Both the position numbers and the translations under genes were made by a program. A DNA stretch of 64,000 nucleotides from contig CAMCWF010000002.1 of assembly GCA_945882095.1 (NCBI GenBank), forward strand, positions 124,001 through 188,000, read 5' to 3'. Each line of letters begins with the position of its first letter. Position 1 is the stretch's first letter. The notes under the pieces were generated by a model that was not told where the DNA came from, made no database searches, and saw only the letters and a program-made list of their open reading frames with translations. Origin of the DNA: Chryseobacterium gleum. Its GTDB lineage: Bacteria; Bacteroidota; Bacteroidia; Flavobacteriales_D; Crocinitomicaceae. Of the stretch, positions 20,542 through 31,551 are shown piece by piece.

Positions 20542-23499
20542 ATGAGAAAAAGAATGTATCTTGTTGGTACTCTGATGATTGCAACCATTTTAACAATGGT
20601 CGCAGGATACCAATTGCAAAAAGCAAACCTAGGTTCTTATGTTCAAAAGAATTTTTCTGATTTAGGTTCATCCGGATCAGGGAGCGAAGCGGAAGGTAAA
20701 GGTGCAGACAAAGCACTTGAATGGATGAAGGCGCGCTATGTCGATGTGAGTACCGGTCTACCCGTGACCCAAGAGAAATTGGCACAAATCCAGAAAGAAA
20801 TTTCCATGATGGATCGTTCTAAAAACATCAGTTTTATTGAACAAGGCCCAGATAACATTGGAGGAAGAACACGTGCCATTCAAGTGGACAGGTCAAACAT
20901 CAACCGTGTTTGGGCAGGAGGTGTTTCTGGGGGATTGTTTGTTTCCTTAAATAAAGGAAATCTATGGAATCGTGTAGAAGAATACTTTAATGCAGGTGCA
21001 AACCCATTCATTTCAAGCATGACGCAAACCAAAGACAATACGTTTTATGTTGCAACGGGATCCAACCAAGAAGGATGGAATGGAAACGGTGTTTGGTATA
21101 CAACGGATGCAGGGGCAAGTTGGACCGTAATTCCTGGAACAAATAATTGTACACAAATCGTAAGTTCAGACGTGGATGATTATGTGTGGATGGCAACTTC
21201 AACTGGGTTGAAAAAATGGAAATTGAACGATGCGGCTTTAACCTCGGTAACGGTAACGGCAGGATCTTGTACGTCACTTGAAATCTCTAAAGACGGACAA
21301 ATCGTTGTTTGTGCCTTTGCTTCTAACAAAACGTATGTATCCACAGATGGAGGTGCAAGTTTTTCTGATAAATCAGGAACCGCTGCAAACAACCTAGTGC
21401 CCAATGGTGCGCAAAGAATTGAATACGCAGTGTCTGCCATTAAAAACAGTTCAAACCACTATTCACTGTATGCCGTTCGTACAAATTCAAACCTACTAAG
21501 CATGCATGTCTCTCATGATGATGGACAAACTTGGACACAATTTGTAGGCGCTTCTGGTCCCCCAAGTGAATTTGACATTTTCCGTGATCAAGGAACGTAC
21601 AATTCAATTGTATCTGTTGTTCCCAATGACCCAGAACAAATTTTAATCGGTGGAATTGACATTTGGAGATGGAAACAAACCGTAAACAATCCTCCTTCCG
21701 GTGGTTTCCAAAAGATTTCCCTCTGGTCGATATCTCCAAGTTCTTCTATCTATGTCCATGCAGATAACCACGAAATGAAATGGGATGGCAACAACCGTTT
21801 CTACGCTGGAAATGATGGAGGTGTAAGCATCACAAACAATTATGGATCAACTTGGTTTGTAGCCAACAGAGGGTATAACGTAACCCAGTTTTACGGAATA
21901 GCCTTTGATCGTGATGGTGCCGTAATGGGTGGAACACAAGACAATGGAACCCTTTACAACAATCATACACTTTCGACTTATCAAGAATTTAGAGAAGTGA
22001 ACGGTGGTGATGGTTTTGAATGTGAGATTTCTTATTTTAATCCTGCAGTAATGTTCTCTACCATTTATTTCAACAACATTTCTCGTTCAGGAGACAAGGG
22101 GAATACATGGAATTCATTTGAACCATTGTTGCCAGGTTCTTATGATCCGGCAGGTACAGACGAAAGCCCTTACCATCCTTTTCATTCTGAAATTTTCTTG
22201 GCAGAATATTTTGATCCGAATTCTGAAGATTCTGTGACGTATGTTCCAACCAAAAATTATGCAAATGGTAACTTAATCCGCATACCTAGTAAATCTTCAG
22301 GGGATTCTATTTCTTATTTCACCCCTACGCCTTTGTATTTTGATGATACCTTGCACTACAATCCAGCTTTGACAGCGGGGGGCATCAACTATGGACAAAA
22401 CGCAGCAACAGGAGAAGTTGTAGCCATGGGATCTGATACAGTGGTTTACAATGTTACCTGGGATACCCTTCGCGTTGCGGATCCTTTTCAATCTTGGTTT
22501 TTAGTGTATGTTAATGCCAATGGTGGTGAATTATGGGGTACAAGAAATGCCCTTAGGTTATCCGTAACTTCCGTTCAATGGGCTTGCATCGCACGTGGAA
22601 TTGGCGGTGGCTTGTTTAACAGTGTTGACGTAGAATTTACAAAAGATTTAGAGCATTGTTACGTGAGTGCAGGAAGCGGTGTTTGGAGAATTGATGGTTT
22701 AGGCAGTGCCTACAGCAGCGATCCAAATTTCATAGCAAAAGTTGGGTATGTGGGAACAGGACCTACGGGGACTACGCCAACCTTTACCTCTGCAGTGAAA
22801 ATTACCACAACCAATTATGAGGGACTCGCCGTGAATCCGTCCAATCCAAATGATATCGTATTGTTTACCGGATTTGGAGGAACGAACAAGCGTTCTTTGA
22901 ATGCCACCAATGCCGTTCCTACCTTTACTACCTTGGGTAATATTTTACCTTCCAACCAACCAGCTTGTTATGATGGTATCATTGACAGAGATGATCCAAA
23001 CATCATCGTAGTTGGAACTTCAAACGGTGCATTTGTAACCGAAAACGGAGGTGCTTCGTGGGAGAATGCTTCAGCAGGTTTCGAAGGTACGCCTGTGTAC
23101 GAGGTAAGACAAAGTTGGAGAACGTTCCAAGAAGGAAATAACCGTCCTGGCGAAATCTACATTGGAACCTTTGGTCGTGGAATTTGGAGCTCAGAGGCAT
23201 ACTTAGGATTGGGAGAAAACGGTTCAAGTACCAACTCGAAATTTGATACGAAATTACTTACCTACCCGAATCCAACACGTGACAACACAACCTTGTCCTT
23301 CCAATTGGAGAAAAGCGGAAACGTTTCAGTGAATGTATATTCTATCACGGGTATTTTGGTGAAATCAATCGTTCGTAACCAAATGTCTGCCGGAGAAAAC
23401 ACATTGTTTATCGATGGAAATGAACTTTCAGCTGGAACTTACATCGTGAAACTGGTATCTGGAAAACAGAGTGAATCAGTGAAATTCATGAAATTCTAA
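20542..23499 (+). CDS. BNR/sialidase-like beta-propeller protein with T9SS type A sorting domain
   Basis: A 985-residue exported protein. It opens with a hydrophobic signal or anchor (MRKRMYLVGTLMIATILTMVAGY). The middle is built from BNR/VPS10-type propeller repeats: WYTTDAGASWTVI, YVSTDGGASFSD, HVSHDDGQTWTQF, ITNNYGSTWFV and VTENGGASWENA. The last about 86 residues (LLTYPNPTRDNTTLSFQLE, NVYSITGILV, LSAGTYIVKL) are a type A Por-secretion domain. The SxDxGxxW boxes mark glycosidase-like or Vps10-like propellers, but catalytic residues cannot be placed. A strong terminator follows, so it is probably monocistronic. Confidence 0.87.
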   Translation: MRKRMYLVGTLMIATILTMVAGYQLQKANLGSYVQKNFSDLGSSGSGSEAEGKGADKALEWMKARYVDVSTGLPVTQEKLAQIQKEISMMDRSKNISFIEQGPDNIGGRTRAIQVDRSNINRVWAGGVSGGLFVSLNKGNLWNRVEEYFNAGANPFISSMTQTKDNTFYVATGSNQEGWNGNGVWYTTDAGASWTVIPGTNNCTQIVSSDVDDYVWMATSTGLKKWKLNDAALTSVTVTAGSCTSLEISKDGQIVVCAFASNKTYVSTDGGASFSDKSGTAANNLVPNGAQRIEYAVSAIKNSSNHYSLYAVRTNSNLLSMHVSHDDGQTWTQFVGASGPPSEFDIFRDQGTYNSIVSVVPNDPEQILIGGIDIWRWKQTVNNPPSGGFQKISLWSISPSSSIYVHADNHEMKWDGNNRFYAGNDGGVSITNNYGSTWFVANRGYNVTQFYGIAFDRDGAVMGGTQDNGTLYNNHTLSTYQEFREVNGGDGFECEISYFNPAVMFSTIYFNNISRSGDKGNTWNSFEPLLPGSYDPAGTDESPYHPFHSEIFLAEYFDPNSEDSVTYVPTKNYANGNLIRIPSKSSGDSISYFTPTPLYFDDTLHYNPALTAGGINYGQNAATGEVVAMGSDTVVYNVTWDTLRVADPFQSWFLVYVNANGGELWGTRNALRLSVTSVQWACIARGIGGGLFNSVDVEFTKDLEHCYVSAGSGVWRIDGLGSAYSSDPNFIAKVGYVGTGPTGTTPTFTSAVKITTTNYEGLAVNPSNPNDIVLFTGFGGTNKRSLNATNAVPTFTTLGNILPSNQPACYDGIIDRDDPNIIVVGTSNGAFVTENGGASWENASAGFEGTPVYEVRQSWRTFQEGNNRPGEIYIGTFGRGIWSSEAYLGLGENGSSTNSKFDTKLLTYPNPTRDNTTLSFQLEKSGNVSVNVYSITGILVKSIVRNQMSAGENTLFIDGNELSAGTYIVKLVSGKQSESVKFMKF

Positions 23500-29561: not shown

Positions 29562-30830
29562 TTACATTCGAACGACGGTTCCTAAGTAATCTGATTTTTC
29601 TCCGATTTCTGGTGTTACTAAGGTAACTTTCCAGATAAATGCTTTGTTTGTTTCTACCATTTTTCCATTTCTTCGGTCGATACCATCCCAAGGAAGGTTT
29701 ACATCCATGGTTTCAAAAACCAATCCACCATCTGAAGGGTCTAATATCACCATCTTGAAGGGTGTGTTACGTTTGGTAAGGGCGTAAGGAAGAAAGGTGT
29801 TTTTTCTTATGTCAGAAGCGTTGGGGTCAAAAGCATTTACAGCCAATAGGTTGTAGGCATCAGACACATAAAAATTTTCAGAAATAACATTGCTGCATCC
29901 AGATTCATCAATGGTGTTAACCTTTAACTGATATTGACCTGCTTCAAATATATTGACCTCTAAGTCTTTGGAAGTTTTGCCAATGTTCTTGTGGTTGATT
30001 TGTATGCTTTGAATGTTGGATTCGGTTTTTATATGGATTCCTTTAACTGGCAAACCATTGCTGTAATTTACATCCTCTAATTGTACCTCAGTTGAGAATG
30101 GTTTTTTAACCCATTGGGTTTGTATAGCTTTCTCGGCTAATTTACCCGCTTGCATTTTAAAGACCTCAATCGCGCCGGTTTCTTTGATTTGTATTTTTTT
30201 ACCTGAATTTGCAGGGATTTGTAGGTAGAATTTCGCACCTACTAAACAAATGTCAAAATCATTTTTGTTCTCAATCAACGCTTCTTCATCCGCACATTTT
30301 GGCAATACAATAGGTTGATAAATTTTGCTGTCTATTGAGTTGATTGGATTGGCATTGTTTTTTAATTCCAATTGCGCTTTATCTTTTAATTGGGTGTCAG
30401 CAGCGACAACATCTGATTCTGAAGTTGACCATTCATCAATGGCCTTGATGACAGGAATTGCTTCTTGGTTGGTTGTTTCAACTGCAACAGGAACATTTGT
30501 TGTATTGGAATTTTGAACCTTTGGAGATGGCTTTGTAAGATTTTCTGAAAGGGATTTTTCAGGGGTGTTTTCCAATTGTCTTGGACCCTCATTTTCCGTT
30601 TTATCACTTTCTTTTGCCAATTTTTCATTGGAATTTGAACTGAAATACCAAAGGGCAACAGAGGTACAAACAACCACAGCTGCACCTGGTATACCCCATT
30701 TGAGAAAAGGATTTTGCTTGGACGGCATTTGCGCATCCAAACGCTTGGAGATGGCATCCCATGAGCTGGGATCAAAAGGCTCGGATTGATTTCCTAAAGC
30801 TTCTTTAAATATTTTGTCAATTTTGTCCAT
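29562..30830 (-). CDS. anti-sigma-like membrane protein with T9SS type B-like C-terminal domain
   Basis: A 422-residue protein. A short cytoplasmic start (MDKIDKIFKEALGNQSEPFD, SSWDAISKRLDAQ) leads to one membrane span (about 46-65), then a Ser/Asn/Glu-rich linker to about 175 and beta-rich domains to about 325. The last about 95 residues (NAFDPNASDIRKNTFLPYAL, LDPSDGGLVFET, PWDGIDRRNGK, YLGTVVRM) resemble the gliding-motility/CHU_C type B domain, though degenerate. It starts 12 bases after the ECF sigma gene, the usual place of an anti-sigma factor. Its N-terminus lacks a cleavable signal, so it should stay in the inner membrane with the sorting-like domain outside. Confidence 0.72.
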   Translation of the reverse strand: MDKIDKIFKEALGNQSEPFDPSSWDAISKRLDAQMPSKQNPFLKWGIPGAAVVVCTSVALWYFSSNSNEKLAKESDKTENEGPRQLENTPEKSLSENLTKPSPKVQNSNTTNVPVAVETTNQEAIPVIKAIDEWSTSESDVVAADTQLKDKAQLELKNNANPINSIDSKIYQPIVLPKCADEEALIENKNDFDICLVGAKFYLQIPANSGKKIQIKETGAIEVFKMQAGKLAEKAIQTQWVKKPFSTEVQLEDVNYSNGLPVKGIHIKTESNIQSIQINHKNIGKTSKDLEVNIFEAGQYQLKVNTIDESGCSNVISENFYVSDAYNLLAVNAFDPNASDIRKNTFLPYALTKRNTPFKMVILDPSDGGLVFETMDVNLPWDGIDRRNGKMVETNKAFIWKVTLVTPEIGEKSDYLGTVVRM

Positions 30831-30842
30831 TCTTGTTGGCGC

Positions 30843-31403
30843 TTATTTAATTTTCGTTGTTAACATTTTCTGCAAGTTTACCCTTGCTTTTGATAAATTA
30901 GATTTTGACGTTCCTTCACTGATTCCGAGTATGTCTGCAATTTCTTTATGAGAGTATTCTTCAAATACATATAAATTAAAGACTGCTCTGTAGGCGGGCG
31001 ATAACTTATTTACACATTCTTTTGCAATTTCGTATTTCAAATGAAGGGCTTCGAGTTCTTCCTTTTCTTCTAAAGGATTTTCCGTGGGCGTTTTAAAGTC
31101 GGTGTCCTTATCGCTTAAAAAAGGATTCCGTTTTGCTTTCCGAATGGCATCAATGGCAGTATTCGAGAAAATTCTACGCATCCAACCTTCGATCGAACCT
31201 CTGAAGTCAAACATTTCCAATTTGTCAAAGACCTTTATAAATCCATCTTGTAGAACCTCTTGCGCGCTGTCTCTGTCACTTATGTAACGAAAACAAACCG
31301 CCATCATTTTGCCTTGATACATTTTGAAGAAGGTCTGCTGTGCTCGACGGTCATTTCGAATACATGCCTCAACAATTTGTCTCAACGCCTCTTGGTTCTC
31401 CAA
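30843..31403 (-). CDS. ECF RNA polymerase sigma factor
   Basis: A 186-residue sigma-70 family ECF factor. Region 2 is RDSAQEVLQDGFIKVFDKLE followed by GWMRRIFSNTAIDAIRKAKR; region 4 is LSPAYRAVFNLYVFEEYSHKE with helix-turn-helix IADILGISEGTSKSNLSKAR. The reading frame is closed by a stop two codons upstream of a TTG that must serve as start (TTG at 31403-31401), since no ATG precedes region 2. It leads a two-gene operon with the membrane partner at 29562 and probably directs a small surface or envelope regulon. Confidence 0.9.
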   Translation of the reverse strand: MENQEALRQIVEACIRNDRRAQQTFFKMYQGKMMAVCFRYISDRDSAQEVLQDGFIKVFDKLEMFDFRGSIEGWMRRIFSNTAIDAIRKAKRNPFLSDKDTDFKTPTENPLEEKEELEALHLKYEIAKECVNKLSPAYRAVFNLYVFEEYSHKEIADILGISEGTSKSNLSKARVNLQKMLTTKIK

Positions 31404-31551
31404 TTTTTATGTCTTTTACGATGTTTAACAAAGGTCAGTTGCCTTGAATTTTTAGGTCAACAAAAAACTTTTTCAAATTAAAGAAAAAAATTAATGTAGT
31501 TGTAGTAAATTCGCCGTGACAATAATAGAAACAATTTCAACAATAAATCAA

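Follow-up and report, generated by a model that had tools for sequence, protein, structure and literature searches.

A membrane-anchored partner of an ECF sigma factor in Bacteroidia that is predicted to end in a diverged type IX cargo sorting domain

FlgM and the flagellar sigma factor sigma-28 link gene expression to the status of an export apparatus, and FlgM itself is exported. The PorXY-SigP pathway of Porphyromonas gingivalis is known but, to our knowledge, its input is not. Dma proteins, which hold ECF21 sigma factors, have the same layout as the protein described here but carry a barrel (PMC13088901). PorA of P. gingivalis, a protein with a C-terminal domain of the type IX secretion system (T9SS), feeds the ECF sigma factor SigP, which controls T9SS genes (PMC7712824). 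In Flavobacterium psychrophilum, the SM6 promoters are ECF-type with a CGT -10 box, and among them are those of an ECF/anti-sigma pair and of the T9SS genes GldN, PorU and a PG0189 homologue (PMC9723704). Type B sorting domains of T9SS cargo bind PorP/SprF-like outer-membrane proteins (PMC9143113, PMC12618676). A literature search found no anti-sigma factor with a type B sorting domain, in agreement with the preliminary description of the present locus, which knew of no described system with this layout.

The locus lies in the window, by which we mean the whole stretch of 64,000 nucleotides that was analysed. The open reading frames were re-examined, and the genes, strand, lengths and 12-bp gap given in the preliminary description were all as described. 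The features are as follows.

31418..31444, minus strand: promoter-like element AGGCAAC-N17-CGT, located 14 bp before the sigma start and conserved at the level of the order
30843..31403, minus strand: ECF sigma factor of 186 aa with a TTG start (open reading frame with Sigma70_r2, Sigma70_r4_2 and TIGR02937 matches)
29562..30830, minus strand: anti-sigma-like partner of 422 aa, starting 12 bp past the sigma stop
30696..30830, minus strand: partner residues 1-45, a short two-helix cytoplasmic segment with an invariant W24 (alignment, AlphaFold2, hhalign)
30636..30695, minus strand: partner residues 46-65, single membrane span (hydropathy, AlphaFold2)
30315..30635, minus strand: partner residues 66-172, a variable, predicted disordered tether of about 100 aa (pLDDT, low conservation)
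29856..30314, minus strand: partner residues 173-325, a pair of beta domains with a PKD-like profile, recognisable as PKD in distant members
29565..29855, minus strand: partner residues 326-422, a predicted diverged homologue of the type B (CHU_C) sorting domain without NRWG (genome search, Pfam, hhalign)

Elsewhere in the window, the plus strand at 20542-23499 encodes an exported protein of 985 aa that matches Sortilin-Vps10 and has a T9SS sorting domain of type A (Por_Secre_tail).

The sigma protein matched Sigma70_r2 (3.6e-13) and Sigma70_r4_2 (3.2e-17) in Pfam and TIGR02937 in NCBIfam (3e-29, 101.8 bits, cut-off 42.9), and it is an ECF sigma factor in being short (186 aa) and having regions 2 and 4 only. 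The partner is predicted to be N-in with a single span. Its hydropathy maximum is at residues 42-65, and an AlphaFold2 model built with 67 related sequences has helices at 2-13 and 21-33 and a membrane helix at 50-64, in keeping with the one span placed earlier at about 46-65. No signal peptide lies ahead of residue 42, and the protein does not have the Sec signal peptide of T9SS cargo, because 45 hydrophilic conserved residues precede its sole hydrophobic segment. In the model, residues 64-168 have pLDDT below 50 and are predicted to be disordered, and confident beta domains extend from about 178 to 422, with pLDDT 93-97 over the last 97 residues. Conservation in the family is highest in the C-terminal sorting-domain homologue (mean identity score 0.58), followed by the N-terminus (0.39), and lowest in the tether (0.12). 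The partner alone had no significant match in Pfam, NCBIfam or a PDB sequence search. Residues 1-45, which had been described as an anti-sigma-like start, matched no anti-sigma model in Pfam or NCBIfam. In a Foldseek search with the model, the PDB hits were all strings of Ig-like domains with low TM-scores, among them fragments of the Aureispira adhesin GhpA and of PorU, and this search was uninformative; no structure of a type B domain has been solved (PMC12618676).

The resemblance of the C-terminal block to the CHU_C/type B domain, noticed earlier from the letters alone, was borne out as homology, although not by the window sequence itself. Searched directly, the partner is below the cut-offs of Pfam PF13585 (CHU_C) and NCBIfam TIGR04131, whereas 25 of 34 homologues from the order matched CHU_C (best 2.8e-16) and 15 of the 34 matched TIGR04131, with PKD present in 19. 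A whole-genome search covering 100 related genomes aligned partner residues of about 296-420 with the C-termini of frames of 900-4600 aa, down to E about 1e-10, and large exported proteins whose C-termini match the partner typically end in a sorting domain. In hhalign, the profile of the last 100 residues of the family aligned with true cargo sorting domains at 97.9% (E 4.9e-13) and with the PKD domain that precedes cargo sorting domains at 0.6%; an identity as Ig/PKD only, which had been named as one finding that would overturn the proposal, was rejected on these two values. Because the genome search, the CHU_C/TIGR04131 matches of the homologues and hhalign agree, we regard the partner C-terminus as homologous to the sorting domain, and its last ~97 residues are, as judged from sequence, a diverged CHU_C/type B domain. 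The idea of a non-cleaved copy of the sorting domain in a membrane-anchored partner is thus supported.

The copy differs from cargo domains in one motif. NRWG, which is located between the acidic loop and W-D-G in cargo domains, was lacking in 120 of 120 anti-sigma domains, whereas 82 of 85 cargo domains have it, a count made across the loci examined with the automatic classes corrected by hand. All 30 motif-driven cargo domains, i.e., those behind the promoter described below, carry it. The anti-sigma domains keep the W-D/N-G, Y-x-W/Y-x-V and terminal G-x-V landmarks, and in the genus of the window the acidic NGDG loop is lost as well. SprB of F. johnsoniae has five conserved type B motifs, and its secretion requires every one of them (PMC12618676); NRWG may be one of the five. 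The simplest reading is that the anti-sigma domain may be a copy that is recognisable but not exportable.

The sigma/partner pair is widely conserved. A sigma gene lies immediately upstream of 104 of 115 distinct partner homologues, most commonly with a 4-bp overlap (64 loci), and therefore the pairing exceeds chance. The non-adjacent loci are contig ends, L139, which is frameshifted yet abuts a sigma gene, and L045, which is ordinary CHU_C cargo and not a member of the partner family. At the level of the class, nine or more further families have full-length partners (frames of 407-470 residues), and the pair was found in 27 of 27 loci with a recognisable sigma gene. In one family of the order (f4) the pair was not seen, and the matches there were large cargo frames only. 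Taken together, the gene neighbourhoods indicate that the pair recurs across the class Bacteroidia. The search for homologous pairs proposed in the preliminary description thus gave a positive answer, and homologues away from sigma genes, which would have spoken against a functional pair, were not what was found.

The promoter-like element shows the same conservation. AGGCAAC-N16/17-CGT was found upstream of the sigma gene in 137 of 137 order-level loci with an adjacent sigma gene, where its usual form is AGGCAAC-N16-CGT[T/C], about 40 bp upstream of the sigma start, and in 25 of 27 class-level loci. This is the autoregulated promoter typical of ECF sigma factors, as far as sequence can tell. 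The spacer of the sigma-gene promoter is 17 in the clade of the window and 16 nearly everywhere else, and the cargo sites of that clade keep 16. Ten other sigma-like genes of the window's genome are without this promoter. Since the looser pattern GGCAAC-N15-17-CGT occurs in the window twice versus 0.98 expected, the window count carries little, and the promoter claim rests on position and conservation; it is by its autoregulatory position and conservation that the promoter is predicted to belong to this sigma factor. In three genomes from other families of the order (L334, L336, L345), the gene behind a GGCAACC-N15-CGTC promoter encodes a small membrane protein (about 140-150 aa) that is conserved.

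We surveyed the predicted regulon by pattern search and genome stretches in 61 genomes of the genus; most genomes surveyed are metagenome-assembled, and distances and counts depend on automatic start calls. The total number of motif matches in the genus scan was not clearly above that of the reversed pattern, and therefore the regulon claim rests on site position and downstream genes. Among the first 30 loci, 28 motif sites had a start codon within 110 bp; with the reversed pattern only 2 of 30 sites did, and 27 of these 30 lay inside coding frames. Twelve of the 28 promoter-placed sites belonged to the sigma gene itself, and the other 16 all preceded genes for signal-peptide proteins. Across the 61 genomes, 31 of 58 complete non-sigma targets matched CHU_C and 7 of 58 were type A; the 58 targets form 22 N-terminal clusters, 11 of which have CHU_C ends. 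The background is 27-49 CHU_C matches per genome of 2.2-2.9 Mb, or about 2% of genes; binomial estimates take no account of residual relatedness and serve as a rough guide. As only a few of these 27-49 genes per genome carry the element, the regulon would be a subset of cargo, and it also includes type A cargo and small exported proteins. Two families of the latter, 102-121 aa long, lie directly behind the promoter of this sigma factor (L162, L167, L178, L212 and L237, L243, L244, L249, L255), and these proteins are possible modulators. In the genome of the window, the promoter-placed sites precede the sigma gene, an 817-aa CHU_C protein (L189) and an exported protein cut by the contig end. 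In eight genomes of other families, what follows the sites includes the sigma gene, genes for exported proteins and one for a small membrane protein. The T9SS link that the preliminary description drew from the C-terminus is independently supported by this predicted regulon rich in type B cargo. Genes of the T9SS machinery were considered as a regulon, and none was among the genus-level sites. Non-coding targets of this sigma factor were also considered, and of 12 sites without a good downstream gene a terminator-like hairpin was seen at L229 only, so we do not propose such targets.

The same genome encodes a second ECF sigma/partner pair, outside the window (G000:C3:49811-50605; loci L291, L351). 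Its partner has 265 residues, is membrane-anchored and matches CHU_C above the cut-off (39.4 bits versus 27). The second pair is conserved in the genus; 29 of 30 loci have the partner next to its sigma gene, and the promoter in most of them is of another type, ATGCAACYT-N16-GTC. In the genus this promoter is enriched over the reversed control, and the genes behind it encode CHU_C cargo, small exported proteins and the second sigma factor itself. An operon follows it in eight genomes and consists of a gene for a small exported protein (usually 133 residues) and one for a CHU_C protein of 746-786 residues. Apart from anti-sigma proteins, the closest relative of the second partner's domain in most of the genomes listed is the latter cargo family. 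The first pair differs in this respect: within the genus, the CHU_C proteins closest to its partner's sorting domain are not among the predicted targets. The two partner families have homologous N-termini (hhalign 97.4%, E 1.2e-11). The class-wide conservation, the conserved autoregulatory promoter, the loss of NRWG and the second paralogous pair were not foreseen in the preliminary description. Behind the second sigma's promoter we also observed, in three genomes (L386, L398, L407), a 214-aa response-regulator-like protein at a distance of about 107 bp. Two further loci, L423 (G027:C15:15500-16700) and L424 (G017:C1:577900-579000), are tandem arrays of about five short units, each consisting of this promoter, about 60 nt and then a strong terminator hairpin. 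From their sequence the arrays look like sigma-dependent small RNA genes, and the units had no Rfam match over threshold.

The explanation we lean towards, and which we regard as somewhat probable, is that the partner acts as a trans-envelope anti-sigma factor of the Dma kind and senses by means of a copy of the cargo signal that is not itself exported, so that cargo transcription is coupled to the occupancy of the T9SS or its shuttle. The partner is predicted to bind the sigma factor via residues 1-45, and its extracytoplasmic sensor, judging from the alignments, has its origin in the type B sorting domain of T9SS cargo; that sensing is done by this copy is what we infer. The domain would dock on the receptor that normally takes type B signals, which may be the SprA translocon or a shuttle of the PorP/SprF kind; the genome encodes SprA and 13 PorP/SprF matches. 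Because it is without NRWG, the domain would presumably be bound but not exported. A free receptor would engage the domain, and the strain, or proteolysis resulting from it, would release the sigma factor and turn on cargo genes; when cargo fills the receptor, the domain would be displaced and the sigma factor held again. Transcription would in this way be matched to secretion capacity, and competition by cargo would provide the signal. Of all the steps, the direction of the switch is the least certain; activation when receptors are free is preferred because the predicted targets are cargo genes. The cell would then be monitoring the traffic through its own secretion system. More tentatively, and with somewhat less confidence than we place in the case of this locus, the same may hold as a principle throughout Bacteroidia: anti-sigma sensors would be disabled copies of type IX sorting signals, cargo and copy would compete for the secretion receptor and thereby determine how strongly cargo is transcribed, and paralogous pairs with different copies and promoters would serve different cargo sets.

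The layout of the partner would also suit a sensor of tension or integrity across the envelope. A T9SS or PorP/SprF-like protein would hold the domain at the outer membrane, disturbance of the envelope would free the sigma factor, and the cargo regulon would be merely surface remodelling. The order of N-terminal domain, span, disordered tether and C-terminal outer-membrane module equals that of Dma (PMC13088901), the tether has about 100 disordered residues, and the C-terminal domain is the most conserved part of the partner, all of which such a sensor would share. We nevertheless consider it rather unlikely: the absence of NRWG from every anti-sigma copy argues against export to the surface, and the predicted regulon is rich in cargo, not in chaperones, Bam or lipid genes.

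The loss of NRWG in all copies, together with that of the acidic NGDG loop in the window's genus, can also be read in another way, namely that the domain is now an Ig-like fold that binds an unrelated ligand, such as a glycan or one of the small exported proteins in the regulon, and that descent from the sorting domain is its history and not its function. The recurrent small exported proteins of ~102-121 aa in the regulon would be possible ligands. This reading seems to us improbable, since two separate anti-sigma families carry the domain, both with cargo-rich targets, and the signal has retained its remaining landmarks (W-D/N-G, Y-x-W/Y-x-V, terminal G-x-V). That the partner is a secreted or surface protein merely co-transcribed with the sigma factor, with no anti-sigma role, agrees with the failure of Pfam/NCBIfam anti-sigma models to match residues 1-45. 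It is very hard to reconcile with a pair of overlapping genes conserved across the class, with an N-in single span and no signal peptide ahead of residue 42, and with an N-terminal segment that has an invariant W and is common to a second sigma-adjacent family, and we give it hardly any weight.

If the coupling to receptor occupancy holds, the locus offers a physically simple answer to how Bacteroidota match type IX cargo production to export capacity, i.e., a sigma-factor brake wearing the cargo's tag. It would also add another kind of sensor to the trans-envelope Dma anti-sigma factors described recently, and a promoter and a regulon are now predicted for a so far unannotated sigma/anti-sigma family. 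Dma anti-sigma factors are alike in occurring in Bacteroidota only and in the adjacent ECF sigma gene, the N-terminal segment, one span, a long disordered tether and a C-terminal envelope-targeted module. The adjacent sigma gene, N-terminal segment, single span and disordered tether are all found here, but the C-terminus of Dma is an outer-membrane beta-barrel and that of the partner is, by prediction, a type B sorting-domain homologue, and the predicted regulon here is T9SS cargo. Class II anti-sigma factors (CnrY-like, PMC7406223) resemble the two-helix start of the partner only in length and helix count. With the T9SS type B domain (CHU_C PF13585/TIGR04131) the partner shares the W-D-G, Y-x-W-x-V and terminal G-x-V landmarks; unlike type B cargo, it is membrane-anchored and has neither a cleavable signal peptide nor NRWG. 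The likeness to the F. psychrophilum ECF/anti-sigma pair is in the CGT -10 box and the T9SS-linked promoter group, and the available text of that study reports no sorting domain for its anti-sigma factor (PMC9723704). In PorA/PorXY-SigP, a separate surface protein acts through a two-component system and SigP controls T9SS genes including the machinery, whereas here the anti-sigma-like protein carries the domain itself and the targets are cargo. FlgM is exported, whereas the partner is membrane-anchored and probably not exported; the likeness is in the working principle.
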